A stretch of 35,646 nucleotides of DNA from a virus: positions 1 through 35,646 of IMG/VR virus record IMGVR_UViG_3300025508_000059. The stretch is one strand, 5' to 3'. How positions within the stretch are numbered: the first letter of the stretch is position 1; each line of letters opens with the position of its first letter. The notes beneath the pieces were generated by a model. The model was not told the origin of the DNA and searched no databases. It saw nothing but the letters and a program-made list of their open reading frames with translations. A program made the translations under genes and the position numbers. Below are positions 368 through 35,453 of the stretch, one piece after another.

Positions 368-703
368 TTACTTCCAGTCGTCAAGCTCGGTCTTAGTGAA
401 TACGATTTGAACGCCCAACGCTGCGCCGCCTGATGTAATATCTTGGGCTGCTACATCGGTAAAGTAATATTTGGCAAAGGCTGTTTGATACTTAAACAAC
501 ATTTCGTAATCACCGCGACTTCTTGCGTCAAGCATATCGCGTGCCAAGTCTTCTTTTAAACTATGTCCGTGAACTTTTTTGTATTCTTCAAGGAATTCAC
601 CACCTTGTATCTTGCTTGTGGATCCGAGTTTTCTTCCTGAGCCAACTCTTTTTCCGCCGCGCTTTTTGATTTCGGGCTGATTAGTTTTCAATTCTTGCGT
701 CAT
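368..703 (-). CDS. terS: Terminase small subunit-like protein, left-end allele (111 aa)
   Basis: Probable DNA-recognition subunit of the packaging motor. The assignment rests on position immediately before terL, size, and the basic N-terminal GGKRVGSGRKLGS segment, typical of small-terminase N-termini. The C-terminal tail (GVQIVF...ELDDWK) is nearly the same as in the right-end TerS at 35112-35453, but the rest is only weakly similar. The start is preceded by ATAAATA with a five-base gap and no clear Shine-Dalgarno site. It is followed without spacing by the terL ATG. The neighbouring upstream gene is a 55-aa ORF. Confidence 0.75.
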   Translation of the reverse strand: MTQELKTNQPEIKKRGGKRVGSGRKLGSTSKIQGGEFLEEYKKVHGHSLKEDLARDMLDARSRGDYEMLFKYQTAFAKYYFTDVAAQDITSGGAALGVQIVFTKTELDDWK

Positions 704-708
704 ATATC

Positions 709-715
709 TATTTAT
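709..715 (-). promoter_or_regulatory. ATAAATA late-promoter-like box before left-end TerS
   Basis: On the minus strand the sequence reads AAATAAAAGATAAATAG, ending five bases before the TerS ATG. It has the TATAAATA-like core of T4-type late promoters and the same AAATAAAAG upstream context as the boxes at 14942, 16912, 32792 and 35459. There is no -35 element. Its function as a promoter is inferred from recurrence. Confidence 0.5.
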
Positions 716-718
716 CTT

Positions 719-886
719 TTATTTTAAAGTAAACTTGATTTCTTTTACTTTGGGTTTTCTTGGCTTGACTATCTTCTTAATGGACTCTGGACCAAGTTCC
801 AAACCGCATTCTTTATACAGCAATGCTATCTCAATGGGAGATTGTTTTGGTTTAAACCAATTGCGCAATGTGTCAAGTATAGTCAT
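719..886 (-). CDS. Small conserved phage protein (55 aa)
   Basis: A short ORF starting MTILDTLRNWFKPKQSP and ending with a lysine-rich tail (KPRKPKVKEIKFTLK). It fills the gap between the 120-aa gene and terS, and it is preserved in the second allele at the right end (35469-35636) with one amino-acid change (Ser to Pro). The differences between copies leave the frame intact, which supports it being real. The stop codon lies beside the ATAAATA box used for terS. No function is recognisable. The basic C-terminus could bind nucleic acid, but this is only a guess. Confidence 0.7.
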   Translation of the reverse strand: MTILDTLRNWFKPKQSPIEIALLYKECGLELGPESIKKIVKPRKPKVKEIKFTLK

Positions 887-895
887 AATGTTTCC

Positions 896-1258
896 TTATA
901 CAAAAATCTGTTCGTAGTCTTCTGCTTTATCTTCAGGATCTAATCCATCCCAAATTGTCTTATCTACTTTATGTTGATACTTGCGTGTACCAAAGCTTGT
1001 GAGTAGTTTTTGATTTTTCATTGTCCAGCTCATTACAATTTCTTGATAGCGTTCTTTACCAAGAATAAGTTGTAGTTGAGTCTTTGAGTCTTCAATAGAA
1101 GGGTTGATATCCCACTTAGAGCCTTGTACAGTAAACATAAACTCAATACATTGATCTATCTCAAGTTCATTCATATACGGAGATAATTCCGTTACCATTC
1201 TGTCGAAGGCTTTGATGTTTGATGTATCGGGTCTGTCAATGATACTTTTAGTGGACAT
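896..1258 (-). CDS. Hypothetical phage protein (120 aa)
   Basis: No family recognised. The protein is acidic at the C-terminus (DPEDKAEDYEQIFV) with no membrane segment. The ATG at 1258 is chosen over the upstream GTG at 1267 because GAGGTG lies at Shine-Dalgarno distance from it. It overlaps the end of the preceding gene (1248-1595) by 11 bases, indicating the same operon. It lies in the run of small genes leading into terS. Confidence 0.7.
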   Translation of the reverse strand: MSTKSIIDRPDTSNIKAFDRMVTELSPYMNELEIDQCIEFMFTVQGSKWDINPSIEDSKTQLQLILGKERYQEIVMSWTMKNQKLLTSFGTRKYQHKVDKTIWDGLDPEDKAEDYEQIFV

Positions 1259-1595
1259 TATGTTCACCTCTTAGTTCAATCAATTGTTGTTCAGTGAGCA
1301 AGGCGCCCAAGAAAGAATGTATTGCTTTCATACCAATGATCTTAAAGTCAAGATGTTGTAAATCTTCATCTTTGAGGTCTGCCAGTGGAATGTCCATTAA
1401 CAATACCAATGCTTTATTGATGTCTGTCATCAGTGGTTGAATTGATACCCATACTGTATCATCTGTTGCTTTTACTAATCTATAGCTGTTAAGTTGTTTT
1501 GTTATCATTGGTTTTTCTTTTTTAAATATACGATCATAGGACTCATCAAAGGTCTCTTTGTTCGTGGGTCGTTGCTTGCTGCCTTTGCCGCTCAT
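1248..1595 (-). CDS. Hypothetical protein with GKGSKQRPT N-terminus (115 aa)
   Basis: The N-terminus MSGKGSKQRPTNKETFDESY followed by DRIFKK matches a short conserved start that I recall from many uncharacterised phage proteins. The rest is helix-rich, with no catalytic motif visible. The start is supported by GAGGAAAG upstream and by a TAATG stop/start overlap with the gene before it. It is probably translated together with its neighbours. Function unknown. Confidence 0.75.
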   Translation of the reverse strand: MSGKGSKQRPTNKETFDESYDRIFKKEKPMITKQLNSYRLVKATDDTVWVSIQPLMTDINKALVLLMDIPLADLKDEDLQHLDFKIIGMKAIHSFLGALLTEQQLIELRGEHNVH

Positions 1596-1978
1596 TATTC
1601 TTTCCTCTTTGTTACAAATTGAAGGTAATCTTCATCATCATCCGTTTGTCTTTTATTTATGCGTTCACATGTATTTTTATGTTGCTGAATTACTGTCTCT
1701 GATGCGAATGTTTTATCACATTCCATACAGCGATAGCCCAAATGTTTCCATTCTTTCATTCTGTAGGCATAAATTTTACTCATCTTTGGAATGGGTAAAT
1801 CTACTGGTTCTGTCTCAGCAATTAGTTTAAGTTCTGTTTGATCCATGCGTGTTATTATTTTTTCAATGTGAAGTAAACCGTTTTCCATTATACCCCAATC
1901 TTTGTTTCTGCGGGACATTAATTTTACATAGGACTTATCCTTTAACTTCTGTTCCTCGGACTTTATTTGCTTTTTCAT
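1595..1978 (-). CDS. Small C2HC zinc-finger protein (127 aa)
   Basis: Contains one zinc-finger pattern, C-x2-C-x12-H-x3-C (CMEC...H..C, near residues 84-104 from this start), of the kind that binds nucleic acid. The N-terminus is highly basic. The frame is open up to a GTG at 2014, but that start has no ribosome site and would overlap the upstream gene by 80 bases. The ATG at 1978 overlaps by 44, and a further ATG at 1918 would not overlap at all, so the start is uncertain. The role is unknown. A transcription or DNA-binding function is inferred only from the finger. Confidence 0.65.
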   Translation of the reverse strand: MKKQIKSEEQKLKDKSYVKLMSRRNKDWGIMENGLLHIEKIITRMDQTELKLIAETEPVDLPIPKMSKIYAYRMKEWKHLGYRCMECDKTFASETVIQQHKNTCERINKRQTDDDEDYLQFVTKRKE

Positions 1979-2285
1979 CTTTGATTTTGTCCAATCTCTT
2001 TCTATGCGCGGCACTCATATTTGCTTTATGTTGTGCTGTCTTTGGCTTGCCCAACTTGGCTAAACTCATTTTTCTTTTTTGTTCTTCTGTCTTAGGCACA
2101 CCTTTTAATGTGTTTCTGAGAGCAGCTTTAATATTGGCTCTTGCCGCGGGTGAATGTGGGCCCGTGCCCGTTTGCCAGGGCGTGTGATTTGGCAGTTGTT
2201 GTAGAGGTTCTGCTCGTTGAAGTTTAATGATTTTCACATTATGTTCGTTGTAGCAATGAACGCGAGTTTTAGTTGTTTGTGTCAT
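1935..2285 (-). CDS. NUMOD3-repeat DNA-binding protein, homing-endonuclease type (116 aa)
   Basis: The middle and C-terminal part carries repeated NUMOD3-like segments (SPAARANIKAAL, KTEEQKRKMSLAKLGKPK, TAQHKANMSAAHRKR). These are short helical DNA-binding modules usually found at the C-terminus of HNH and GIY-YIG homing endonucleases. No intact nuclease motif is visible in the first 50 residues, so it may be a remnant or a stand-alone binding protein. An ATAAATA box ends five bases before the ATG and there is no Shine-Dalgarno site. Its 3' end overlaps the zinc-finger gene. Confidence 0.65.
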   Translation of the reverse strand: MTQTTKTRVHCYNEHNVKIIKLQRAEPLQQLPNHTPWQTGTGPHSPAARANIKAALRNTLKGVPKTEEQKRKMSLAKLGKPKTAQHKANMSAAHRKRLDKIKDEKANKVRGTEVKG

Positions 2286-2290
2286 AGCGG

Positions 2291-2297
2291 TATTTAT
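2291..2297 (-). promoter_or_regulatory. ATAAATA box, five bases before a start codon
   Basis: The minus strand reads AAAGATAAATACCGCTATG, with the same box-to-ATG distance as at both TerS copies. Candidate late promoter giving a nearly leaderless transcript of the NUMOD3-repeat gene. Confidence 0.4.
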
Positions 2298-2518
2298 CTT
2301 TGTTCTGCTGTGGGATATTGTTTGAAGTTATCAACTGTGAGCCACTTGACAAACTTATTACATGTAACGCACATGAGTTTGCCATAATGTGGAGCAGCAG
2401 TGGCAACGGCACATAGTGTGTGATCCATGTGCTGTGTGGGTAAAGGCTTGGCTTCTGTGTAATCAGTGAAGTCTAGATTCTTTCTAAATTGAGGTCTGTT
2501 ATAATTAAGTTTTGACAT
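2294..2518 (-). CDS. Hypothetical protein with CxxC pair (74 aa)
   Basis: The C-terminal half (HYGKLMCVTCNKFVKWL) has a CxxC pair followed by KFVKWL. I have seen this pattern in small phage proteins, sometimes fused to nucleases, and it may bind a metal ion. The ATG at 2518 is preferred over the one at 2551, because an ATAAATA promoter-like box (2539-2545) lies between them and would be inside the longer version. The stop codon overlaps the ATAAATA box of the next gene. Function unknown. Confidence 0.6.
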   Translation of the reverse strand: MSKLNYNRPQFRKNLDFTDYTEAKPLPTQHMDHTLCAVATAAPHYGKLMCVTCNKFVKWLTVDNFKQYPTAEQR

Positions 2519-2538
2519 TTTGCTCGTCTTGTATGTAT

Positions 2539-2545
2539 TATTTAT
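2539..2545 (-). promoter_or_regulatory. TATAAATA late-promoter-like box
   Basis: The minus strand reads GTGTATAAATAATAC, a full TATAAATA core, 20 bases before the ATG at 2518. This spacing leaves room for a short leader. Confidence 0.45.
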
Positions 2546-2570
2546 ACACAAGACAAGCGGTGAAATTAAA

Positions 2571-2954
2571 TTATATAAGACTGGCTCTATTCACTCTAGC
2601 AGCGTAAAAGCTCTTTAATTCCATTTCAAAATCAGTTATCTTCCAAACATTAGGATCGCTATGAACATCATTAAGCATTATTTCGTAATAACTATCCACT
2701 GTGTTTGTTTCAATTGCGTGGGCGAATGATTTAGGTTCATACCAAGCCCAATCCAAATGACTAAGCATTCTAAATTTAGTTGAGTGTTTGGCTACAAATA
2801 TATTTTTATTAATTCGTAGGACTCCATTATATTCTGTTACTTCTAACTTTACTGCGGTATGGGCTTTAATTGCGTTATATCTCTGTATCAATTTAATATC
2901 ATTGATATAGGGATGATAAGCTTTAAGCCGGGGACTATTATGTGGGTTTGCCAT
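2571..2954 (-). CDS. Hypothetical protein (127 aa)
   Basis: No family recognised. It is a soluble basic protein rich in aromatic residues (LDWAWYEPKSF), with no signal peptide or membrane helix. It is the first gene after a good sigma-70-like promoter (2981-3009), so it is probably expressed early and heads the leftward cluster of small genes. GAAAG lies upstream of the ATG. Confidence 0.65.
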   Translation of the reverse strand: MANPHNSPRLKAYHPYINDIKLIQRYNAIKAHTAVKLEVTEYNGVLRINKNIFVAKHSTKFRMLSHLDWAWYEPKSFAHAIETNTVDSYYEIMLNDVHSDPNVWKITDFEMELKSFYAARVNRASLI

Positions 2955-2980
2955 ATTATCTTTCAGTTGTTGATATGTTA

Positions 2981-3009
2981 ATTATAACAGGTAATTTACT
3001 TGATGTCTG
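2981..3009 (-). promoter_or_regulatory. Sigma-70 promoter with extended -10
   Basis: On the minus strand: CAGACA (3004-3009), 17-base spacer, TATAAT (2981-2986) preceded by TGT, giving an extended -10. The predicted start is about 20 bases before the ATG at 2954. It would drive the leftward small-gene cluster early in infection. Confidence 0.6.
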
Positions 3010-3068
3010 TTGTATTTTTACAACATTGGCCGATCCTAATCGATTAATTGAATGAAAGGAAAGCAATT

Positions 3069-3121
3069 CCGTTACTAATAACCCTTATATATATCTATAG
3101 CATTAAAAGTAACGGTTTTTT
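3069..3121. terminator. Inverted repeat with T-run past the helicase 3' end
   Basis: CCGTTACT (3069-3076) pairs with AGTAACGG (3108-3115) across a 31-base AT-rich loop, followed on the plus strand by six T. The T-run is on the plus side, so as a terminator it would stop rightward (antisense) transcription. No plus-strand gene is visible upstream. It may instead shape the 3' end of the helicase transcript. Confidence 0.35.
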
Positions 3122-3133
3122 ATATATAAATTT

Positions 3134-4549
3134 TTATGGGTTATTTTTCTTGTTATCTCGGTATTTCTTTTGTTTTTCTGCTTTGGTCATTTTATTATCT
3201 TTAGTAGTTCCAATTGGTCTGCCAGTACTTTTGGGTTGTTGTTTTACTCCATTAAGTAAATTCATTTCTAAAATTTCAATGGAATCACCATCAAAATAAT
3301 CCAGGACTGAGGATGCGATAGAAAAATCGGGAATGAATACATTGATGACTTCATTCGCATAATTCATTGAACGAAGTCCGGTGCGCATAATCACTTGATA
3401 AAACAGATAACTAGAATGAAAATGTAAAATCATTCGTTGCTGTTCGTATTTGTCCATATTCATTAACCAAACCTGTTTATAAAAACTTTCAATATGTGGA
3501 TCCATATTAAGGGCAGATTCTAGATTTACATTGGTAATGTCTTGATAATCATTTAGTCCGTGGACATTATGAGTTAGTACTTCTTCATCTGGTAATGATT
3601 TGTCTTGATGATTATTACGAACTGTGATGATTCTACCAGTTCTGTGCTGATTAATGTATGTATGATAATTCGTGACAATCTCTGGATATTTCTTTATCAA
3701 AGAATTGCTGTATATGATAGTTTGGTTAATAGTTTTTGTACCGATAGTTTTATCAGTATGGATTCTGATATTGCCCATATGTTCTTGGAAATCAGTGAGA
3801 ATTACACTCTTGATATTATATGTTTTAAGCCAGTAATACATTTTAGTATACTTGAACGCAGCCGCTGCTATTAATACATCGTGCCAGCCAACAACTAAAT
3901 GAGGATCAAGAACATTAATAATGCGCGCCTCGCCCTCTTTCATTTGAGATAATACTTTCCAACCATGTCCTGTGACATATGTCATATAATTATTATCAAC
4001 TAGATTGAGAAAGCTTTCACTATCATTTAATATTGATTGTCCTGGATCTAATATTACATTAATACGGGTCCAATCACTATCACTATCAGTAAGTTCAATA
4101 ATAGATTGGGACACTGAATCTTCAAATGTAAAAAGCTTTTCAAGCTGTAAATTATTATCCCACGTGGATTTCTTATAAGTGATTTTAGAAAGCTTTACAA
4201 CTTCTTCAAGTGCCTCATCAATAATCAAATCATAGTTATTTTTATAACCATTATCTTTGGGTAATAGCGTAAATGTCTTATGCGTAATAATTATAATGTT
4301 CTCATTATTCCTCATACTGTCAATTAAAGCTTTGACTGTGGATTTAAATTTATAATTATACTTGTTATATATTTTACTATTGATAATATCCATGGGGACA
4401 TCAATATCATTGCCATATTGTTCTTGTAACTTCAATCCGGGGACGACAATTAAAGTATTAATATTATTTTGAATATTAAATTGGATTCGTTTGTAAATAC
4501 GCTGGGTAGTTTTGCCGAGACCGCAGCCTCGTTGATCTATCGTTATCAT
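3134..4549 (-). CDS. SF2 helicase-like ATPase (471 aa)
   Basis: Superfamily-2 style NTPase, likely acting in phage DNA replication, recombination or transcript remodelling. Visible motifs are Walker A GCGLGKTT (8-15), the DExx box DLIIDEALE (107-115), GLNDYQD (331-337) in the region of motif V, and MRTGLRS (388-394) as an arginine-finger motif VI. The C-terminus has a GRPIGT AT-hook-like segment and a lysine-rich KAEKQKKYRDNKK tail suited to DNA contact. It is the only replication-type protein I can find. The start lies eight bases after AGGA, which sits in the stem of a structured leader, and a consensus promoter lies at 4688-4716. The exact helicase family is not certain. Confidence 0.75.
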   Translation of the reverse strand: MITIDQRGCGLGKTTQRIYKRIQFNIQNNINTLIVVPGLKLQEQYGNDIDVPMDIINSKIYNKYNYKFKSTVKALIDSMRNNENIIIITHKTFTLLPKDNGYKNNYDLIIDEALEEVVKLSKITYKKSTWDNNLQLEKLFTFEDSVSQSIIELTDSDSDWTRINVILDPGQSILNDSESFLNLVDNNYMTYVTGHGWKVLSQMKEGEARIINVLDPHLVVGWHDVLIAAAAFKYTKMYYWLKTYNIKSVILTDFQEHMGNIRIHTDKTIGTKTINQTIIYSNSLIKKYPEIVTNYHTYINQHRTGRIITVRNNHQDKSLPDEEVLTHNVHGLNDYQDITNVNLESALNMDPHIESFYKQVWLMNMDKYEQQRMILHFHSSYLFYQVIMRTGLRSMNYANEVINVFIPDFSIASSVLDYFDGDSIEILEMNLLNGVKQQPKSTGRPIGTTKDNKMTKAEKQKKYRDNKKNNP

Positions 4550-4557
4550 TGAATTGT

Positions 4558-4678
4558 TCCTATGTTAATGAATTGCTCCCTGTGCCTCGTGGTATGAGGT
4601 GAATCCCGCTATTACCACATAACGGGATTCTATAACATAGGAGTCAAAATGTAAAAGCCTCTTAGTTCTTCTACATTT
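4558..4678 (-). promoter_or_regulatory. Structured leader of the helicase gene (three-way junction with kissing loops)
   Basis: The transcript from the promoter at 4688-4716 would contain a 5' hairpin (4647-4653 with 4672-4678), then a three-way junction. The outer stem is 4558-4567 with 4633-4642 (10 bp). Hairpin 1 is 4601-4608 with 4623-4630 (GAATCCCG/CGGGATTC, 8 bp). Hairpin 2 is 4585-4588 with 4596-4599. The two hairpin loops contain perfectly complementary GTGGTA (4589-4594) and TACCAC (4613-4618), a possible kissing interaction. The 3' side of the outer stem carries the AGGA ribosome site of the helicase, so folding would hide it. I do not recognise a known riboswitch class. Confidence 0.6.
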
Positions 4679-4679
4679 C

Positions 4680-4686
4680 TATTTAT
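4680..4686 (-). promoter_or_regulatory. ATAAATA box at the helicase transcription start
   Basis: It lies directly downstream of the sigma-70 -10 element (TATAATGATAAATAG), overlapping the expected start site. It could allow both early and late transcription of the helicase leader, or could be part of the initial transcribed sequence only. Confidence 0.35.
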
Positions 4687-4687
4687 C

Positions 4688-4716
4688 ATTATAAATCCTT
4701 TTTGATTTATTGTCAA
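4688..4716 (-). promoter_or_regulatory. Perfect sigma-70 promoter facing the helicase
   Basis: On the minus strand: TTGACA (4711-4716), 17-base spacer, TATAAT (4688-4693). Full match to consensus at both hexamers with ideal spacing. It drives the structured leader and the helicase gene and diverges from the plus-strand block. Confidence 0.85.
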
Positions 4717-4719
4717 TAG

Positions 4720-4726
4720 ATAAATA
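4720..4726 (+). promoter_or_regulatory. ATAAATA box before the first plus-strand gene
   Basis: The plus strand reads AGATAAATAGATATATG, the same 15-base ATAAATAGATATATG string found before both TerS genes on the minus strand. The box ends five bases before the ATG at 4732, with no Shine-Dalgarno site. Confidence 0.45.
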
Positions 4727-4731
4727 GATAT

Positions 4732-5034
4732 ATGAATCAAATACTCCACGATCTTTATGATAATGTGACAATCTCGCCCACTGTTATCCGAATTGCCACA
4801 AGCCACGCAAACTTACATCAAATGGAACCATTGTTCTATGACAAACGCATTGATGATATGATTAACTTGACCGAAAACTGCGCGGCAATTAAAATAACAA
4901 TGAAGCTTGATGACTTTTTGGATATGGAGAAGATATTATCAAAAAGTGTGACCGAAAAACAACAACGCGAAGCTGATCCGCGCCTTAAAGAGCTTTACAA
5001 TGCTTACCAAACCTTTTTACACTTATCGCAATGA
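4732..5034 (+). CDS. Hypothetical conserved phage protein (100 aa)
   Basis: No family with known function recognised. The sequence has features of a compact soluble protein (KITMKLDDFLDMEKILSKSV followed by a basic/acidic helix and DPRLKELYNAYQTFLHL). It is the first gene of the plus-strand block. Its stop overlaps the next start as ATGA (5031-5034), so it is translationally coupled to the GIY-YIG gene. It starts five bases after an ATAAATA box. Confidence 0.75.
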   Translation: MNQILHDLYDNVTISPTVIRIATSHANLHQMEPLFYDKRIDDMINLTENCAAIKITMKLDDFLDMEKILSKSVTEKQQREADPRLKELYNAYQTFLHLSQ

Positions 5035-5462
5035 ATTGGACATACAAAAACACATTCGTCACAGAACTGCCTGATTGTACTGGTTTTGTCTATTTGATAG
5101 TGAATTTAACAAATAACAGAAAGTACATTGGTAAGAAACTGTCAAAATTCGCAAAGACAACTTACAAAACCGTGACCCAAAAGAATGGAATCAAGAAAAA
5201 GAAAAAAATAAAATCATCAGTGGATTCGGATTGGGTAACTTATTATGGGTCCTCAGTTGAACTAAGTGCCGATGTTGCCCGACTTGGAACAGATTGTTTC
5301 TCCCGTGAAATCCTTTATTTCTGTATGAGCAAAAGCGAATGTTCATACATTGAAGCCAGGGAGCAATTCAGCAGAAAAGTGTTAGAATCATCAGAATACT
5401 ACAATGGACAAATAAGCGTCAGAGTTCATGGTTCACACATCAAAAAGCTTGACATTAAATAG
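5031..5462 (+). CDS. GIY-YIG endonuclease, Seg/homing type (143 aa)
   Basis: The N-terminal module FVYLIVNLTNNRKYIGKK (19-36) holds a GIY-YIG variant, with VYL as the first motif and YIG as the second. It is followed by a lysine-rich insertion (about 46-62), then DWVTYYGSS and REIL typical of phage Seg-like GIY-YIG proteins. The C-terminal part has a conserved YYNGQISVRVHGSHIKK stretch. It probably cleaves DNA as a free-standing homing endonuclease or has been adopted as a phage nuclease. It overlaps the preceding gene by ATGA and is followed by an early promoter. Confidence 0.75.
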   Translation: MNWTYKNTFVTELPDCTGFVYLIVNLTNNRKYIGKKLSKFAKTTYKTVTQKNGIKKKKKIKSSVDSDWVTYYGSSVELSADVARLGTDCFSREILYFCMSKSECSYIEAREQFSRKVLESSEYYNGQISVRVHGSHIKKLDIK

Positions 5463-5477
5463 GTTATACGCTATAAT
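5449..5477 (+). promoter_or_regulatory. Perfect sigma-70 early promoter 1
   Basis: TTGACA (5449-5454), 17-base spacer, TATAAT (5472-5477). It overlaps the end of the GIY-YIG gene and drives the 95-aa gene. The -10 and transcribed leader are repeated exactly at promoter 2. Confidence 0.9.
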
Positions 5478-5498
5478 AGACTCTTAAACAGCAACAAA
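5470..5498 (+). repeat. 29-bp promoter-leader direct repeat, copy 1
   Basis: Exact match to 5852-5880. It begins at the base pair before the -10 region and covers -10 plus ~20 bases of transcribed leader (ending AACAGCAACAAA). In both copies the ATG follows after 12 further bases. Confidence 0.95.
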
Positions 5499-5510
5499 TA
5501 GGATTTAGAT

Positions 5511-5798
5511 ATGAGCAACAAACACATCGCAATTAAATGGGCAACTGCTACTGTCAAAACAGCACCAAGTTTTGTCTATAGTGATCAGTTCTTTAAGCCC
5601 TTTAGCAACGAAAGCACTCGTCGTAAGATTACGCAAGAACTTGCTAAAAATGGTGTGCTGGTTTGGTTTGATACTAAAGAAGGCGCCTTTCTGTTCCGTG
5701 CAAACGATCCAAAACTTACTATTAAACAAGATGCCAACTTTAAAGTTGGTATGTATGTTGATGAGAATGTATTGCTGTTGCCCGCATTGGCAATTTAA
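5511..5798 (+). CDS. Hypothetical early protein (95 aa)
   Basis: No family recognised. The protein is soluble, with a basic centre (ESTRRKITQELAKNG) and a hydrophobic C-terminus (ENVLLLPALAI). The start is fixed by AGGA upstream and by the consensus promoter 34 bases before it. It is likely among the first genes expressed, a position typical of small host-takeover proteins, but its target cannot be inferred. Confidence 0.75.
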   Translation: MSNKHIAIKWATATVKTAPSFVYSDQFFKPFSNESTRRKITQELAKNGVLVWFDTKEGAFLFRANDPKLTIKQDANFKVGMYVDENVLLLPALAI

Positions 5799-5830
5799 TT
5801 TACAGGAGCGTATGATGAAATGTCAGAGAA

Positions 5831-5859
5831 TTGACAATAAATCAGTTCTCTGCTATAAT
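5831..5859 (+). promoter_or_regulatory. Perfect sigma-70 early promoter 2
   Basis: TTGACA (5831-5836), 17-base spacer, TATAAT (5854-5859). The spacer differs from promoter 1, but the -10 and leader are identical. If the downstream gene is translated from ATG 5812, this promoter lies inside its coding region. Confidence 0.9.
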
Positions 5860-5880
5860 AGACTCTTAAACAGCAACAAA
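5852..5880 (+). repeat. 29-bp promoter-leader direct repeat, copy 2
   Basis: Exact repeat of 5470-5498, again followed by a 12-base gap and ATG (5893). The repeated unit looks like a duplicated expression module rather than repeated coding sequence. Confidence 0.95.
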
Positions 5881-5892
5881 CTTGGAAAATAC

Positions 5893-6168
5893 ATGAAAAA
5901 TCACTCTTACTCTGACTATCTTGACAACGAGCAATTCTTGAAAGCAGTTAAAAAATATATGTCAAAATTCGCAGATTTTGATTCAATCAAAGATGCCATT
6001 GGCGATGAAGTAAATACTTTGATTTTCAGTAGTCATGGTGATTCCAATGAAGTTAACACATATCTCGCAAAAGCAAAATCACTGATTGAAGTACTTCAAT
6101 ATATCAACAATCTGTCAACACGCAGTGAAGACAATCTAGTTGATTATACTTTTGATGAGTCACTATGA
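5893..6168 (+). CDS. Hypothetical early protein (91 aa; possible 118-aa form from 5812)
   Basis: No family recognised. It is acidic and helix-rich with no membrane segment. The ATG at 5893 is chosen because it stands exactly 12 bases after the repeated promoter leader, as in the preceding gene. The same frame is open upstream, and ATGATG at 5812 follows a strong AGGAG (5804-5808). Transcripts reading through from promoter 1 could therefore give a form 27 residues longer. The stop overlaps the next start as ATGA. Confidence 0.7.
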   Translation: MKNHSYSDYLDNEQFLKAVKKYMSKFADFDSIKDAIGDEVNTLIFSSHGDSNEVNTYLAKAKSLIEVLQYINNLSTRSEDNLVDYTFDESL

Positions 6169-6380
6169 GTTTGTTTCGTTTCCCCGATTGGTTTGTAAAT
6201 GAAATTGTAGATATAATGGATGATGATCTATTAAGATTTACGGCGGGTCAGGACTTTGTTAATGAAAAAATTAATAAAGTCATTCTTCATAATCGTCCAA
6301 ATTTAAGTGAATTCAATTTGGATCAGTTGATGATGAAATGTCAGATAAAGTTAAAAGAGAAGTATGAATCAAACAACTAA
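6165..6380 (+). CDS. Hypothetical protein (71 aa)
   Basis: No family recognised. It starts within the last codons of the previous gene (ATGA at 6165-6168), indicating coupling. Basic C-terminal half (KINKVILHNRPN, KCQIKLKEKYESNN), acidic patch DIMDDDL near residues 17-23. Probably early. Confidence 0.65.
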   Translation: MSLFRFPDWFVNEIVDIMDDDLLRFTAGQDFVNEKINKVILHNRPNLSEFNLDQLMMKCQIKLKEKYESNN

Positions 6381-6633
6381 ACTAATTTCCGCTGCTTATC
6401 ATATCTCTGCCGTGACAGCACGCAATGATTTGTTTGAAGCCACTGCTGAATTATCAGACACTCAGTTTGTTAAGATAACTGGTGAGAGCAAGGCCACTTG
6501 GCGCGATTATATCTCAAACTTATCGTCACTTGAAATCAAGGGACTGCGAAAGCAATTTACCACAAAGCTAGACATTGAGAACAAAAGAGTCAATTCATAT
6601 TACTTCAGTAGAAACGATCATTACAAATCGTAA
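6364..6633 (+). CDS. Hypothetical protein, last gene of plus-strand block (89 aa)
   Basis: No family recognised. It overlaps the preceding gene by 17 bases. The sequence looks mostly helical, with TGESKATWRDYISNL in the middle and a basic C-terminus. A strong terminator follows 18 bases after the stop, closing the early unit. Confidence 0.65.
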   Translation: MNQTTKLISAAYHISAVTARNDLFEATAELSDTQFVKITGESKATWRDYISNLSSLEIKGLRKQFTTKLDIENKRVNSYYFSRNDHYKS

Positions 6634-6650
6634 AAGTCTTAAAACAGACA

Positions 6651-6690
6651 AAAAAAACTGCGTTCCTGATAGATAGGCCGCAGTTTTTTT
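6651..6690. terminator. Rho-independent terminator of the plus-strand block
   Basis: The stem 6651-6662 pairs with 6679-6690 (AAAAAAACTGCG/CGCAGTTTTTTT), with an inner CCT/AGG pairing and a T-run. The A-run on the other side makes it usable in both directions. Confidence 0.85.
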
Positions 6691-6703
6691 ACCATAAAAG
6701 CGT

Positions 6704-6749
6704 CATTTAAATTAAAACTCATTTAAATACCATTAGACATACTAGTATG
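6704..6749. repeat. Direct repeats and palindrome between two terminators
   Basis: CATTTAAAT occurs at 6704-6712 and 6720-6728, followed by the perfect 12-bp palindrome CATACTAGTATG (6738-6749). The stretch is non-coding. The arrangement resembles a protein-binding or replication site. No factor can be named. Confidence 0.5.
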
Positions 6750-6761
6750 CTCCAGCCGTGA

Positions 6762-6785
6762 AAAAGCCCCATTTAAGGGGCTTTT
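6762..6785. terminator. Bidirectional terminator closing the minus-strand late unit
   Basis: AAAAGCCCC (6762-6770), six-base loop, GGGGCTTTT (6777-6785). On the minus strand the hairpin is followed by a TTTTT run, ending late transcription after the Dps-like gene and the structured element 6796-6885. Confidence 0.85.
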
Positions 6786-6795
6786 AATTATTTGA

Positions 6796-6885
6796 AGTGA
6801 ATAGAGAAATAAGGTTAGATAGAGAAAGCATTTAGAGAGGATACCTTACAAGAATTTACAGTTGGCGAACTGCTCCCTATTCACT
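6796..6885 (-). ncRNA. Candidate structured RNA between Dps-like gene and terminator
   Basis: The closing stem is 6796-6804 with 6877-6885 (AGTGAATAG/CTATTCACT, 9 bp). A hairpin CAGTT-loop-AACTG lies at 6859-6872 and a longer arm is TAAGGT/ACCTTA (6810-6815 with 6843-6848), giving a three-way junction. An ATAAATA box (6889-6895) lies just before it and a terminator just after it on the minus strand. There is no ORF longer than about 12 codons from the box. It could be a small RNA, a 3' UTR structure or a DNA site. Confidence 0.5.
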
Positions 6886-6888
6886 ATC

Positions 6889-6895
6889 TATTTAT
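6889..6895 (-). promoter_or_regulatory. ATAAATA box upstream of the structured element
   Basis: The minus strand reads GTGATAAATAGATAGTG. It lies after the Dps-like stop codon and no gene follows, so if active it would make a ~120-nt non-coding transcript ending at 6762. Confidence 0.4.
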
Positions 6896-6913
6896 CACTG
6901 TCCACGCAAAATA

Positions 6914-7348
6914 TTATTTTGTTGTTGAACGCAATTGCCAAATCATCTTAGCATTGAAATCAATACGATCAGCAAGATAATTTTGTAGACCATAACATCT
7001 TTCAGCTCCGGCTAGATCATAAACATCGGCCAATAATTTATTTAGTAACTCGGTATCTGCCAGCAGTTCTTTAGTCATCTTCATGGCATCTTGAGTTGCC
7101 AATTGATCTTTGATTTTACCAAGTTCAACAATGCGGGGAATGGCCATTGGTACCAATGAATCTATTGCGCGAATTTGCTCGGCAAAAGAATCAATATTAT
7201 CTTGAGCTTCATCATAAATTGTCTCAAACAACTGATGAAATTCAGAGAAATCACTGCCAACTAAGTTCAGATGAAATCCGTGTGACTTTACATAATATTG
7301 AAAGTGAGTGGCGAAAGCCACTTTCATTGCTTCTATAAGTTTATCCAT
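6914..7348 (-). CDS. Dps-like ferritin-fold protein (144 aa)
   Basis: Matches the Dps family (DNA-protecting mini-ferritins that oxidise and store iron). The segment KSHGFHLNLVGSDFSEFHQL and the following helix give H26, H38, D53 and E57, with spacings of 12, 15 and 4 residues. That is the same spacing as the Dps ferroxidase residues H51, H63, D78 and E82 of E. coli Dps. The usual Trp after the first His is Leu here. The length fits the family. The ATG at 7348 is chosen over the GTG at 7372 because TAGGAAAT precedes it. It is the last gene of the late unit, directly after the lysis-type genes, where an endolysin might be expected. Confidence 0.82.
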   Translation of the reverse strand: MDKLIEAMKVAFATHFQYYVKSHGFHLNLVGSDFSEFHQLFETIYDEAQDNIDSFAEQIRAIDSLVPMAIPRIVELGKIKDQLATQDAMKMTKELLADTELLNKLLADVYDLAGAERCYGLQNYLADRIDFNAKMIWQLRSTTK

Positions 7349-7349
7349 T

Positions 7350-7586
7350 TTATTTCCTATCTTCTTTATCACCGAGCTTTTCCATAAGCTTCATTAGTAA
7401 ATCTTTTATCTCTTTGATATCACCTTTGTAATCATCACGGGCAACATAAGTCTTGGGAAGTTCTTCGCGTAACTTAGCGAGGTCAGCTTGAAGTTCTTTC
7501 ACCGAGGACCATACTTGCCTTGCGAACCATCCACCACTTGCGATAGCCACTGTGGCCACGATATTTATTAAATTCTGATATTCCAT
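7350..7586 (-). CDS. Membrane-anchored coiled-coil protein, lysis-associated type (78 aa)
   Basis: One N-terminal hydrophobic segment (about 6-26, INIVATVAIASGGWF) followed by a charged coiled coil (ELQADLAKLREELPKTYVAR and beyond). This is the shape of small holin-partner or spanin-like proteins next to phage holins. The ELPKTYV-x-RDDY pattern recurs in uncharacterised phage proteins of lysis cassettes. Start overlaps the holin stop as TAATG, so the two are co-translated. No lipobox cysteine is seen, so it is not a standard o-spanin. Confidence 0.65.
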   Translation of the reverse strand: MEYQNLINIVATVAIASGGWFARQVWSSVKELQADLAKLREELPKTYVARDDYKGDIKEIKDLLMKLMEKLGDKEDRK

Positions 7587-7768
7587 TACTTATCCTCTAG
7601 GGGTTGATTTGTCATAGCACGCAATATTACAATTGCCAATGCTAATACAAGTCCAATAGAAGACTGTTGTATCGCACTTAAGGGAAACTGAACTACATAA
7701 CCCTGAACGATTGAAAGAATCGCCAGGATTAATGAGAAGTTAATTGTTTTTGATTTAAAGACTGACAT
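7586..7768 (-). CDS. Putative holin (60 aa)
   Basis: Two hydrophobic segments (about 11-27 and 38-52) separated by a short turn, with a basic N-terminus (MSVFKSK) and a charged end (NQPLEDK). Size and topology fit small two-helix holins that permeabilise the inner membrane at lysis. It overlaps the preceding 62-aa gene by 14 bases and the following coiled-coil gene by TAATG. The assignment rests on topology and position only. Confidence 0.65.
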   Translation of the reverse strand: MSVFKSKTINFSLILAILSIVQGYVVQFPLSAIQQSSIGLVLALAIVILRAMTNQPLEDK

Positions 7769-7943
7769 TTAAAATTGCTCTTGCTGTTGCTTCATCAGAA
7801 TACCAGCTCCATCCCTCAATGGGGAAAGTGTAAGTATCCTTGTCTGCTATATGTAAAGTATATTCTGGGCCATAGACAAAGTTCGGAGCATATTGAAATT
7901 CTCCATAACCATCTACGCGATAAAATCCATTTGTATCTTCCAT
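7755..7943 (-). CDS. Hypothetical protein (62 aa)
   Basis: No family recognised. It is acidic and aromatic-rich (GYGEFQYAPNFVYGPEYTLH). It lies between the LRR adhesin gene and the holin. An ATAAATA box that includes the adhesin stop codon ends four bases before its ATG. The 3' end overlaps the holin start. Similar small proteins occur after tail-fibre genes in environmental phages. Confidence 0.65.
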   Translation of the reverse strand: MEDTNGFYRVDGYGEFQYAPNFVYGPEYTLHIADKDTYTFPIEGWSWYSDEATARAILNVSL

Positions 7944-7947
7944 AGTG

Positions 7948-7954
7948 TATTTAT
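7948..7954 (-). promoter_or_regulatory. ATAAATA box before the lysis cluster
   Basis: The minus strand reads GGGATAAATACACTATG. The box overlaps the TAA stop of the adhesin gene and ends four bases before the next ATG. Confidence 0.4.
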
Positions 7955-9513
7955 CCCGTTACAGTCCAGCCCTTTGCCGTGGCAATTGAGGGCGTGTCAG
8001 TCGCTGCTCCATAACAACCAGTTACTGTAATAGTTTTACCAGTACCAGTGGCAGACAAATTAGTATAAATTGAATTTAATGAAGTGGCACTAAGTTTACA
8101 GTTGGCTATACCAATGCTTGCGTTAATACCTGTCACAGGAAATGATCCAAGGTTAACACAGTTAGTAAACGCAGTGGTGAATGTTGCTGTATTCTTCACT
8201 GCCCAAGTTGGTATGGATACTAAACTAGTGCAGCCAGAAAACGCAGTGTCAAATGATGTGACATTCGCTACATTCGTGATTGGAATACTTTGTAAAGTAG
8301 CACATCCATTAAACATATATGACATATTAGTAACTTTTGTTGTATTAATAGCTGGCATACTAGTTAAAGAGCTACAAGTAGAAAATGTAAATTGTAATGA
8401 TGTGTTATTTGACATATCCAATAATGGAATAGTTTTTATTGAAGCACAACCATTAAATGTTTGCGAAAAAGTAGTTGCATTACTCGTATTGAATAATGGA
8501 ACTGATTGTAAAGCACTACAGCCATTGAACATACCATCCATTGCAGTTGCCTTGGCAGTATTGAATAATGGTACTGTTTGTAAAGATGAACACGCGCTGA
8601 ATGCTGATGTAAATGTAAGTACATTACTTGTATTGAATAATGGAACTGATTGTAAAGAAGCACATCCACTAAATATCGTACCAAATCCAGTTACTTTAAT
8701 AGTATTGAATAATGGAACTGATAATAAATTTTTACATCCAACAAACATTCCTGTCATAGTTGTTACATTTTGTGTATTGAATAATGGTATGGATTGAATA
8801 ACCGAACATGCATTAAACATAGAACCCATGTTTGTTACATTGGCAGTATTCATTGAAGGAATATTAACTAATGAAGTACATCCACTAAACATACTCGTCA
8901 TACTATTAATCGTACTGGTATCTGATATTGATACACTTTGTAAAACACCCATTCCCTGAAACCAGCTATTTGAAAATGTGGCAATGTGAGATAAAATCTT
9001 AACTTGTTCAGTATAACCAAATATTACCGCACCTGATGAACTTAAAATTATTTGAGTTGCGCTTGGGAAACTTATAGTCATATCCAACCAAGCAGTTGTA
9101 GTAACTTGAGTTCCATATTGCGTTGGAATTTTGTTAAGAGCAAATGAAGTTATTGTTTGTCCGCTTTGTGGTGTAACTGTTATAACAACTTGTTTATAAC
9201 CGCGGGATATAGGTGCCCCCGCGACAGAACTATACACATATTGCTTATTGGCAATAACAGTCGTTGCGTAGTTAACCACTGTTCCATCACCCCAATCAAC
9301 TGTGTATGCGCCGGTACATTGAATGGAAACAGCATTACTATCATCATTGAATACGGCAAATAATCCTGCGAATTTTTGTTCAGATGGAGTAATTACAGGT
9401 AATTCTGTCCATTCTGCGGGGCGTACCCATGGAGCAGGTACATTAGGTATACTATTCACCGCAGTTATGGTACGATTTTGTTCAGTACGAACGCTTCCAT
9501 ATCCAATAGACAT
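7951..9513 (-). CDS. Tail-associated adhesin with BspA/DUF285-type leucine-rich repeats (520 aa)
   Basis: Residues ~1-100 contain an N-terminal part seen in phage structural proteins and the motif YTVDWGDGTV. From about 200 to 460 there are roughly ten 23-24-residue repeats of the form PLFNTSNVTxFxxMFxGCxSLQSV, the BspA/DUF285 leucine-rich type used by bacterial surface adhesins. The DNA shows the repeats as a ~70-bp period between about 8290 and 8900. Position after the fibre genes suggests a receptor-binding or carbohydrate-binding virion protein. The start overlaps the stop of the 109-aa gene. Confidence 0.8.
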   Translation of the reverse strand: MSIGYGSVRTEQNRTITAVNSIPNVPAPWVRPAEWTELPVITPSEQKFAGLFAVFNDDSNAVSIQCTGAYTVDWGDGTVVNYATTVIANKQYVYSSVAGAPISRGYKQVVITVTPQSGQTITSFALNKIPTQYGTQVTTTAWLDMTISFPSATQIILSSSGAVIFGYTEQVKILSHIATFSNSWFQGMGVLQSVSISDTSTINSMTSMFSGCTSLVNIPSMNTANVTNMGSMFNACSVIQSIPLFNTQNVTTMTGMFVGCKNLLSVPLFNTIKVTGFGTIFSGCASLQSVPLFNTSNVLTFTSAFSACSSLQTVPLFNTAKATAMDGMFNGCSALQSVPLFNTSNATTFSQTFNGCASIKTIPLLDMSNNTSLQFTFSTCSSLTSMPAINTTKVTNMSYMFNGCATLQSIPITNVANVTSFDTAFSGCTSLVSIPTWAVKNTATFTTAFTNCVNLGSFPVTGINASIGIANCKLSATSLNSIYTNLSATGTGKTITVTGCYGAATDTPSIATAKGWTVTG

Positions 9514-33209: not shown

Positions 33210-34640
33210 TTAATATTTCATATAGTCTTCATCTCCAGCATCCTCACCGGACATAATCTGTTCCCATGTTGGGCCACCAGAGAATAAGGGTGAGTCGGGT
33301 AAATGTTCAGCACCGGGCATTACATTGAATCTTTGATCCATACCAATGTATTCAGGTATTCCAATGCTATCATGTGTAATGGGAAATAGCAATGATATCC
33401 CATATCGCATACAGTCACCAAGACCGTCAATGAAAGCAAACTTATCTGAATACTTGACTAACTTCTTGCGTGATCCATCTTCAAAGTGATAGGACTTCAT
33501 AGCATCTATCAACTTTGTTTGTCGTCCATCAATCATCATTCTACCACTGTTGATAAACGCATTACAAATGTTATCAGTGTCAGTGATAAGTGGATTGGCT
33601 TTGTTCATATTAATAATCTGAAAGCCATACTTTTCTAATAGGGTTTTATCAGTGACGCCAAACGCTGATGTGGTATCTCTATTCAACTGTGAGCCTGACA
33701 TATCTATAATAGAGTAGATTCTACGCTTGGGGAAATCTGCTCTGATAGCTTGGGCCATTTGTTCAGTGCCGCAATCATCTATGCTATATGCCTTAAGGAC
33801 TTCAATACGACCTTCTTTGGTATATGGCTTGATAACGCGGGCCACTACCGCCGTTGCTACTCGTTTGTTAAAGTCGTGGAATGAATAAAGATCGCCTGCT
33901 CCAACATCATTAATCTCAGCGGTATGAAACTGTGGTTGAAATGTGTAGAAGAACATATCCGTGACTGATTCAAAGCTACACAGATAATCCTGGGCGAATT
34001 TCATTGGCGATAGAATCTTCTTCTGTTCGTTAATAAACTCTTTGTTGCCTGCTCGCATTTGTTCGTAATCATAATGTCTTACAATATACTTTTCTGGATT
34101 AACCTTGGCAGCGTTGAACAAATCATAAAGAGGGCCCGCACCGTGTGGTGTTGATATGATAATCATTCGTCCCATTGTATCTGGACTGCCCACCTTTGGT
34201 CTTAAACGATTGGTAATCTCTTGTAATGATTCTTGAGCATATAGCGAGGCTTCGTCCATGATGGCTAGACCAGCGTTCATACCACGAAGATTTTCTCTTT
34301 GTTCTGCTGACTTACAACGGATAAAGGTTCCATTGGGAAACTCTATTGTTAGATCACCGTTGTTGATCTTGGATTCTTTAATGCCAAATAGTTCTTTACA
34401 ACTTTTAGTAAGGTCGGGCCATATTAGAGTCTTTATCATTTCACGAGTTGGTGCTATGTAAAGGATATCCTTACCCTTGTGAAACTTAGCATCTTGCGCG
34501 GCTATGGGAAGGAATAATGCTGCCAGGAATGTTTTACCAGAGCCAACGGGAACAATATCAATTGAATGTTTATCAGTGTTCATCCAATCATTGAAGATTG
34601 TTGACTGTTCGCCATATAAAACTATATCTATTTTTTTCAT
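33210..34640 (-). CDS. terL: Terminase large subunit (476 aa)
   Basis: Packaging motor. Walker A VGSGKT (32-37), Walker B LAIMDEAS (125-132). Nuclease-domain acidic residues appear in HDFNKR (255-260), IIDMSGS (311-317) and FIDGLGD (403-409). The start at 34640 overlaps the HNH stop as ATGA, and it is preferred to the in-frame 34652 ATG, which lies within the HNH gene. The first codons differ from the left-end copy, but from about codon 17 the DNA is ~99% identical over the compared 319 bases. Confidence 0.93.
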   Translation of the reverse strand: MKKIDIVLYGEQSTIFNDWMNTDKHSIDIVPVGSGKTFLAALFLPIAAQDAKFHKGKDILYIAPTREMIKTLIWPDLTKSCKELFGIKESKINNGDLTIEFPNGTFIRCKSAEQRENLRGMNAGLAIMDEASLYAQESLQEITNRLRPKVGSPDTMGRMIIISTPHGAGPLYDLFNAAKVNPEKYIVRHYDYEQMRAGNKEFINEQKKILSPMKFAQDYLCSFESVTDMFFYTFQPQFHTAEINDVGAGDLYSFHDFNKRVATAVVARVIKPYTKEGRIEVLKAYSIDDCGTEQMAQAIRADFPKRRIYSIIDMSGSQLNRDTTSAFGVTDKTLLEKYGFQIINMNKANPLITDTDNICNAFINSGRMMIDGRQTKLIDAMKSYHFEDGSRKKLVKYSDKFAFIDGLGDCMRYGISLLFPITHDSIGIPEYIGMDQRFNVMPGAEHLPDSPLFSGGPTWEQIMSGEDAGDEDYMKY

Positions 34641-35125
34641 AGACGGCGCCATTCATATCCGCCGGTAGATTTTAATTTTCCGCTGAGACATTTATATACA
34701 TGTTGATGATAAAATCCCGCACCATTAATTTCATTTTTGCCGGCTAATATAATTATTTTACCGGTAAGTTTACAAGTACCTTCGACTGAACCTTTAAAGG
34801 ATCCATTCCCTGTTTTTGAAATATTTTTGCGCCATATGGGATCTTGTCGGGCTATAGCATTTGATTGTTTCCAGCTGGTTCTACTAACGCTTGATTGAAT
34901 ATTAAATCTATTGGTTTGTATTGATACATTACCAATCGCATATGGTCCAATATCATTATGTCTTGCCATACAATATTGATTAGAAAGTCTTCCACGCTCG
35001 TCCCATTTACCGGATGCTTGCCATATGGCGAACCATTCATCAAATGTTAGAATGAAATTGATATTTCTAAACTTAGCAGTGTTTCTATGCCGGTTAAATT
35101 TAGCTATAGCATTATTTCCAATCAT
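34637..35125 (-). CDS. HNH-like homing endonuclease inserted between TerS and TerL (162 aa)
   Basis: Core: FILTFDEWFAIWQASGKWDE, YCMARHNDIGPYAIGNVSIQ, TN, shared with 27164 and 29701. The C-terminal half is different, without NUMOD3 repeats, and ends YEWRRL. The ATG at 35125 overlaps the TerS end by 14 bases, and the stop overlaps terL as ATGA. The left-end allele (1-703) lacks this gene altogether, so it is a presence/absence insertion. The ORF extends to 35173, but that would lie deep in terS. Confidence 0.75.
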   Translation of the reverse strand: MIGNNAIAKFNRHRNTAKFRNINFILTFDEWFAIWQASGKWDERGRLSNQYCMARHNDIGPYAIGNVSIQTNRFNIQSSVSRTSWKQSNAIARQDPIWRKNISKTGNGSFKGSVEGTCKLTGKIIILAGKNEINGAGFYHQHVYKCLSGKLKSTGGYEWRRL

Positions 35126-35453
35126 CAAGTTCCTTAGTGGCGAATACGATTTGAACGCCCATTGTCTCGCCATTGCTTGTTACATCAACTTCACTCTTAT
35201 CGGCCAATACTTTATTAAGAATCAAGGTTTGATACTTATGAATAAGATGTTTATCATCACTTGCTCTTGCTCTTGCGTAATCTTCAGCAAGGCCAATTTC
35301 AAATGGCACATCACGCTTGGCAATTTCTTCAAGCACGGACATTGAGTTAAGCTTATTACTAGTACCTTTCTTGCGACCGGAGTTTGCTCTTACACCACCG
35401 CGGCCCTTCTTAGGTATTATTTGATCTATTTTCAAAGAGTCTTTATTAGTCAT
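35112..35453 (-). CDS. terS: Terminase small subunit-like protein, right-end allele (113 aa)
   Basis: Basic GGVRANSGRKKGTSNK segment near the N-terminus, helical middle (EIGLAEDYARARASDDKHL), and the C-terminal GVQIVF-x-x-KELDDWK. Only the tail and the basic segment match the left-end TerS (368-703) well, and the middle is strongly diverged. It likely recognises phage DNA for packaging. ATAAATAGATATATG forms the start, with no Shine-Dalgarno site. Confidence 0.75.
   Translation of the reverse strand: MTNKDSLKIDQIIPKKGRGGVRANSGRKKGTSNKLNSMSVLEEIAKRDVPFEIGLAEDYARARASDDKHLIHKYQTLILNKVLADKSEVDVTSNGETMGVQIVFATKELDDWK

Follow-up and report, generated by a model that had tools for sequence, protein, structure and literature searches.

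Genomic context of the leader

The DNA analysed here (the window) comprises all 35,646 nt of IMGVR_UViG_3300025508_000059, a 35.6-kb virus record of an uncultivated phage. Both of its ends sit close together within near-identical contigs, and the window is therefore probably circularly permuted. Around the contig ends, parts of a TerS-like gene and of the start of TerL are present twice (3-703 and 34637-35453), and positions 368-703 and 35112-35453 match the same protein of a syntenic relative, G001 (IMGVR_UViG_3300015244_000305); the arrangement suggests a tandem duplication of the terminase region. Two near-identical contigs, L001 and L005, share 99.6% identity with the window over 420-7775 and only about 85-89% in the terminase-portal region, a contrast that can be taken as a sign of recent recombination. 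The genome encodes an ordinary large terminase. On the minus strand it also encodes a ferritin-like (Dps-type) protein that matches a phage DNA-binding protein family (6914-7372) and a protein with DUF285 repeats (7951-9513), to which similar proteins are found in G001; such repeats are usually seen in mycoplasmas.

The leader precedes a minus-strand gene for a helicase-like protein, which had no Pfam match and a weak PHROG match whose function is not assigned there. The features of the locus, in the order of transcription, are as follows.

4688-4716, minus strand: sigma-70 promoter TTGACA-17-TATAAT, 12/12 consensus match, predicted start at about 4681
4680-4687, minus strand: GATAAATA box, directly behind the -10 and common to nearly all leaders of the family
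4646-4679, minus strand: 5' hairpin P0 with a 12-bp main stem, sequence not conserved
4635-4647, minus strand: 5' strand of stem P1p (TTG/CTCCT/TGT), the switch strand with the anti-SD CTCCT (from duplex and P-state fold)
4633-4642, minus strand: 5' strand of stem P1d, TCCTATGTTA, overlapping the P1p 5' strand
4601-4630, minus strand: hairpin A, 12 bp, loop GTGGTA at 4618-4613 (folding and covariation)
4600, minus strand: linker J2, a single A, nearly constant in the family
4585-4599, minus strand: hairpin B, 4 bp, loop ATACCAC, of which TACCAC (4594-4589) perfectly complements loop A (folding and covariation)
4573-4583, minus strand: 3' strand of P1p, ACAGGGAGCAA, without the SD (duplex -9.9 kcal/mol; P state while the transcript is short)
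4558-4567, minus strand: 3' strand of P1d, TAACATAGGA, with the SD AGGA at 4561-4558 (duplex -13.4 kcal/mol)
3134-4549, minus strand: first gene, a 471-aa SF2-helicase-like protein (Walker A GCGLGKTT and a DEAL motif, by eye)

An earlier note on this DNA had described a perfect sigma-70 promoter, a hairpin followed by a three-way junction closed by 10 bp, a six-base complement between the two inner loops, and the helicase AGGA inside the closing stem. All four were recovered on the minus strand: the promoter at 4716-4688, the hairpin at 4679-4646, the closing stem (P1d) as 4642-4633 paired with 4567-4558, the GTGGTA/TACCAC match as a perfect one in the window, and the AGGA in the 3' strand of P1d, 8 nt before the ATG at 4549. 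The predicted fold of the minus strand has an energy of -44.7 kcal/mol (z = -6.55), with 0 of 200 shuffles as good; the plus-strand fold is weaker (z = -3.85).

A predicted kissing double hairpin shared by related phages

L001 and L005 carry zero changes within the leader RNA and are thus uninformative on its structure. More distant comparison was possible with G001, in which the helicase position holds a different gene and the same divergent intergenic region contains an RNA that has the architecture of the window leader but not its sequence. Further relatives were collected with TerL and F3, a small conserved protein of unassigned function, as queries, which gave 72 and 80 loci in viral contigs and none in genome contigs. 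F3 was not found in isolated phages, and a distant blastn search of the leader against isolated phages gave no hits beyond the promoter region and fortuitous stretches.

Scans with a descriptor composed of a closing stem, two hairpins and complementary loops returned the element repeatedly on the TerL strand, upstream of F3/TerL, with high scores clearly above those of shuffled controls. In total, about 35 leaders of shared architecture and different sequence were found in related uncultivated phages; on this comparison, the relatives exclude a chance origin of the architecture seen in the window. Among relatives with enough upstream sequence, the leader is present in 17 of 21 and was not seen in the other four.

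For the alignment, a curated fixed-length excerpt of 20 cores was used; MAFFT misaligned the divergent cores. In this alignment 99.2% of cells pair and all 19 pairs are changed on both sides, with a covariation score of 0.973 against 0.243 for shuffles and at most 0.20 with partners slid; the counts in the kissing columns are partly by construction. The earlier note had named homologous leaders that break the stems without compensation as grounds for giving up the idea, and the idea survived this comparison. Since the kissing columns of the curated alignment had been cut out as complements, the fair test of the loop contact is a scan without the loop criterion. There, loops were complementary over at least 5 nt in 21 of 31 double hairpins lying beside a coding-strand TAAATA box, against 3 of 273 elsewhere, one of these three being a true member. 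Across 25 non-redundant leaders with 16 different loop sequences, a leader's own loops match over an average of 6.1 nt, compared with 3.2 nt when permuted (0/20,000, with relatedness only partly corrected).

As an out-of-sample check, the entire viral collection was searched with a pattern in which only the commonest loops, the CA linker and part of stem B were fixed. It retrieved 14 contigs, in 12 of which stem A surrounds the loops; six of those 12 are new leaders (L149, L150, L153, L156, L157 and L162). Their P1p duplexes range from -7.0 to -13.1 kcal/mol and their P1d duplexes from -7.9 to -16.2 kcal/mol. Switch strands of other leaders mostly pair less well with them; the exception is the P1d of L149, which is no more specific than with foreign strands. 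L149, L150, L153 and L157 belong to the same phage clade, as all carry F3 and L157 also TerL; L156 and L162 had no TerL match within their contigs.

The compared leaders show a fixed core of predicted pairings: hairpins A (about 11 bp) and B (about 4 bp), separated by one A, with loops complementary over about 6 nt. The J2 linker A is the only near-constant unpaired base, and J1 is often a single A. Stem A measures 10.9 +/- 0.8 bp, and hairpin B together with the loop-loop helix 10.2 +/- 0.7 bp, with J2 one nt long and mostly A. Two equal arms of about one helical turn each, linked by a one-nucleotide joint, would suit an intramolecular loop contact.

This geometry bears on the idea of a self-assembling or trans-acting RNA like phi29 pRNA, with loops pairing between molecules. 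In pRNA, too, a closing helix is followed by a longer and then a shorter hairpin, with complementary loops and a three-way junction; however, the arm lengths are suited to an intramolecular contact, an ordinary large terminase is encoded in the genome, and the RNA is an mRNA leader lying 30-75 nt before a start codon. The pRNA family is in Rfam, and cmscan returned no match to it. Of all readings weighed here, we regard this one as the least probable. More generally, the Rfam check proposed in the earlier note gave no gathering-threshold match in the window and eight relatives, apart from an unrelated RNA, the COG2908 cis-regulatory RNA of L028 (3174-3218, plus strand, 68.7 bits); the best weak match was an unrelated sRNA at E = 9.6.

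Two competing closing stems

When all leaders were read together, the switch strand just upstream of hairpin A was found to carry an anti-SD (CTCCTA, for example) and to have two possible partners. P1p is formed with a segment directly behind hairpin B, which in most leaders contains no SD, and P1d with a segment further downstream that holds the SD of the first gene. In the window, P1p pairs 4647-4635 with 4583-4573 and P1d is the 10-bp stem noted above; because their 5' strands overlap, the two are mutually exclusive. The same pair of stems is seen in L132, where CTATAAAGTC/GATTTTATAG stands against TCCTATAAAG with TTTTATAGGA, and further examples are L118, L055, L062 and L105; in L132 and L055 both stems are strong. 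In a few leaders (L116, L070, L006 and L028), P1d includes only part of the SD of the long first gene or none of it. The single SD-hiding stem of the earlier note has thus been replaced: that stem corresponds to P1d, and its competitor P1p had been missed.

Both pairings are specific to the individual leader. Permutation tests on non-overlapping segments, in which own were compared with foreign partners, gave -10.4 against -5.2 kcal/mol for P1p (z = -11.6, 0/20,000) and -10.9 against -7.1 kcal/mol for P1d (z = -8.8, 0/20,000), with relatedness only partly corrected in either case. An anti-SD duplex of -9 kcal/mol or lower is present in 92% of leaders, as opposed to 5.5% of control genes. A compact junction with a terminal hairpin would slow decay from the 5' end, and the element might accordingly be imagined as a mere stabiliser of the mRNA without any switching; this would not predict that one strand has leader-specific complementarity to two targets, one of them the SD, and we give the proposal very little credence.

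The two states lie close in energy. Constrained folding of whole leaders, which ignores the kissing contact and conditions in the cell, gave a median D-P difference of -0.2 kcal/mol, with 14 leaders favouring P and 15 favouring D. In the window, P1p is weaker, interrupted and less regular (-9.9 versus -13.4 kcal/mol for P1d), and the D state (-35.4 kcal/mol) is ahead of the P state (-32.7 kcal/mol) by 2.7 kcal/mol in secondary-structure energies that likewise leave the kissing contact aside. In prefix folding, which follows minimum energies and not real kinetics, P1p formed first in 29 of 29 leaders and P1d followed in 17 of 29 once the SD was transcribed; the remaining leaders stay in P1p or revert to it.

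The leader-specific second partner also bears on a processive antiterminator like HK022 put, in which the nascent RNA binds RNA polymerase. Such a role would be in keeping with the position of the two hairpins, which are joined by one nucleotide, closely follow a promoter and head genes that all run in one direction. Antitermination, however, would not explain an SD-sequestering alternative in nearly every leader; moreover, only pairing is conserved here, whereas put RNAs share sequence similarity (PMC9378689), and neither kissing nor a junction is found in that source. A put-type function therefore appears very unlikely. This and the pRNA-like reading had been considered first and were downgraded after the finding of P1p and P1d.

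Genes behind and promoter elements ahead of the leader

The first genes behind the leaders belong to nine unrelated families, which include the window helicase, a primase-polymerase-like protein (L070), a 440-608-aa family, a 245-277-aa family and several small proteins. The window and L085 have almost identical leaders with unrelated genes behind them. Since the first gene differs among relatives, the leader travels with the operon and is not specific to the helicase. The earlier proposal of an RNA switch controlling the helicase thus holds as regards a switch with kissing loops and a hidden SD; the tie to the helicase does not, given at least eight other first-gene families.

Members of the 440-608-aa family are found in L012 (6474-8024, minus strand), L062 (2977-4392) and L067 (3683-5002) and as the first genes of L111 and L097. 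They had no Pfam or PHROG match and contain motifs like YDLNAA and HDA. A Foldseek search with a low-confidence model (pLDDT 46) gave very weak matches (best E 0.06) to mitochondrial and N4 single-subunit RNA polymerases, a hint that the family may represent a divergent polymerase.

Upstream of the leader, a strong sigma-70 promoter is present in some family members only, and a hairpin at the place of P0 is visible by eye in other leaders. What stays constant upstream is a box of the form GATAAATA or TATAAATA, located roughly 40-75 nt ahead of hairpin A. Boxes of these types, summed over ten sequences, number 66 on the coding strand against 15 on the opposite one and sometimes lie just upstream of genes; they are possibly a phage-specific or T4-late-like promoter element. 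Because the TATAAATA form is the T4 late promoter box (PMC3014915), the timing of expression of the leader operons is uncertain. The leader promoter regions of L097, L110 and L111 are immediately preceded by a hairpin that, with its T run, resembles a terminator.

A second promoter-like site, TTTACA-17-TAGAAT (4655-4627, minus strand, 10/12), is present in the window and in L085, with its -10 between the switch strand and hairpin A, and its predicted transcript would lack the switch strand. This recalls a blocker of the T4 gene e type, in which long transcripts hide the SD and an internal promoter supplies transcripts without the 5' strand, with precedents in T4 e, soc, 49 and I-TevI (PMC3014915). 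Across the family, however, the internal promoter is not conserved: -10/-35 scores are 6.5 against 6.2 for shuffles, and a 10/12 match occurs only in the window, L085 and L062. Such a blocker would, in addition, require neither P1p nor kissing loops. The model is not supported by these scores, and we consider it highly improbable.

Proposed mechanism

We hypothesize, with a probability of roughly 60%, that the element is a 5' mRNA leader acting as a bistable translational switch. P1p would be the ON state, with the SD free, and P1d the OFF state, with the SD hidden; the core would hold both halves of the switch adjacent to each other, so that strand exchange becomes possible. P1p would be transcribed and formed first, leaving a fresh transcript translatable for a while, and P1d would then take over and shut translation, unless a ribosome or another factor keeps P1p in place. 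As P1p is made first, time would be the simplest trigger, and about two thirds of the probability given to the switch falls on folding kinetics rather than on a dedicated effector. The leader would then possibly be a co-transcriptional timer comparable to the MS2 maturation-gene leader.

The main rival to this timer reading is a sensing switch of the kind seen in translational riboswitches or autoregulated phage operators. Here the kissing-locked junction would be bound by a small molecule, an ion or a protein encoded by phage or host, so that P1p gains stability and the SD is released, or the opposite happens. A core domain whose closing stem competes with an SD-sequestering stem is the architecture of a translational riboswitch, states of near-equal energy would be easily tipped, and J1 is often a single A and J2 an A in most leaders. 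On the other hand, there is no conserved unpaired pocket, as the loops are fully paired and freely varying and J2 alone is near-constant; the unrelated first genes point to no common pathway, and Rfam is without a match. We therefore regard sensing as rather unlikely. Similarly doubtful is the more particular idea of an effector-sensing phage RNA switch of a so far undescribed class: a three-way junction, kissing-locked, fully base-paired and lacking a classical ligand pocket, would respond to a protein of phage or host, to magnesium or to the supply of ribosomes, and would in this way time downstream translation. The put-like, T4 e type, pRNA-like and stabiliser readings explain less of the data.

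If the bistable switch is correct, the leaders would constitute a conserved family of RNA switches that Rfam 15 does not contain; it belongs to a clade of uncultivated phages and is placed before whichever gene is first, often one of replication type. DNA phages would then rely on a bistable, portable leader, either as a timer of translation or as a sensor; to our knowledge, such a leader-timer strategy is known mainly from the single-stranded RNA phage MS2. With few and cleanly covarying parts, the roles of the kissing loops and of strand exchange would be directly testable, and further leaders could be sought with a descriptor that combines two competing closers with kissing hairpins spaced by one nucleotide.

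Comparison with known systems

The phi29 pRNA is a three-way junction with two complementary loops that acts in trans on the packaging motor. The RNA described here differs from it as an mRNA leader in a genome with an ordinary large terminase, and as one to which Rfam offers no match. The HK022 put RNAs lie downstream of early promoters and, like the present leaders, consist of two close hairpins behind a phage promoter (PMC9378689); the put-type spacing is also seen here, with hairpins one nucleotide apart and a promoter upstream. For put, however, no closing stem, kissing loops or SD alternative are described (PMC9378689), and its RNAs share sequence, whereas the leaders vary freely in stems and loops; the two are set apart on this description. 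The inhibitory leaders of T4 e, soc, 49 and I-TevI resemble the present ones in that a helix of the mRNA masks the SD of a phage gene (PMC3014915). The T4 e leader is released by an internal promoter, whereas none is conserved here and a second stem competes.

With translational and purine-type riboswitches the leaders share a three-way junction, a loop-loop contact and a closer that competes with an SD-sequestering stem; as in the riboswitch mode, P1p competes with P1d in a leader-specific manner and at near-equal energies. The kinship to purine riboswitches that the earlier note had considered from the topology was not borne out: Rfam gave no match and a purine-type core is missing, the J2 A being the only near-constant unpaired base. 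In contrast to purine-type riboswitches, the leaders have no conserved ligand core, their hairpins are unequal, and their loops vary freely and are fully complementary; they also differ from riboswitches in that the controlled genes have no common pathway.

The closest parallel in mode of action may be the leader of the MS2 maturation (A) gene, which adopts a transient, translatable structure ahead of the closed one (PMC6733600; Poot 1997 and Groeneveld 1995, as these are cited in PMC3280964). In both systems an upstream SD complement closes a multi-hairpin structure, a feature that 92% of the leaders have here, compared with 5.5% of control genes, and a transient fold allows, or would allow, translation. 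MS2 is an RNA phage in which one gene is concerned, whereas the present leaders belong to DNA phages and contain kissing hairpins. Unlike MS2, they form a phage leader family in which a covarying competing stem of the P1p type stands before many genes.
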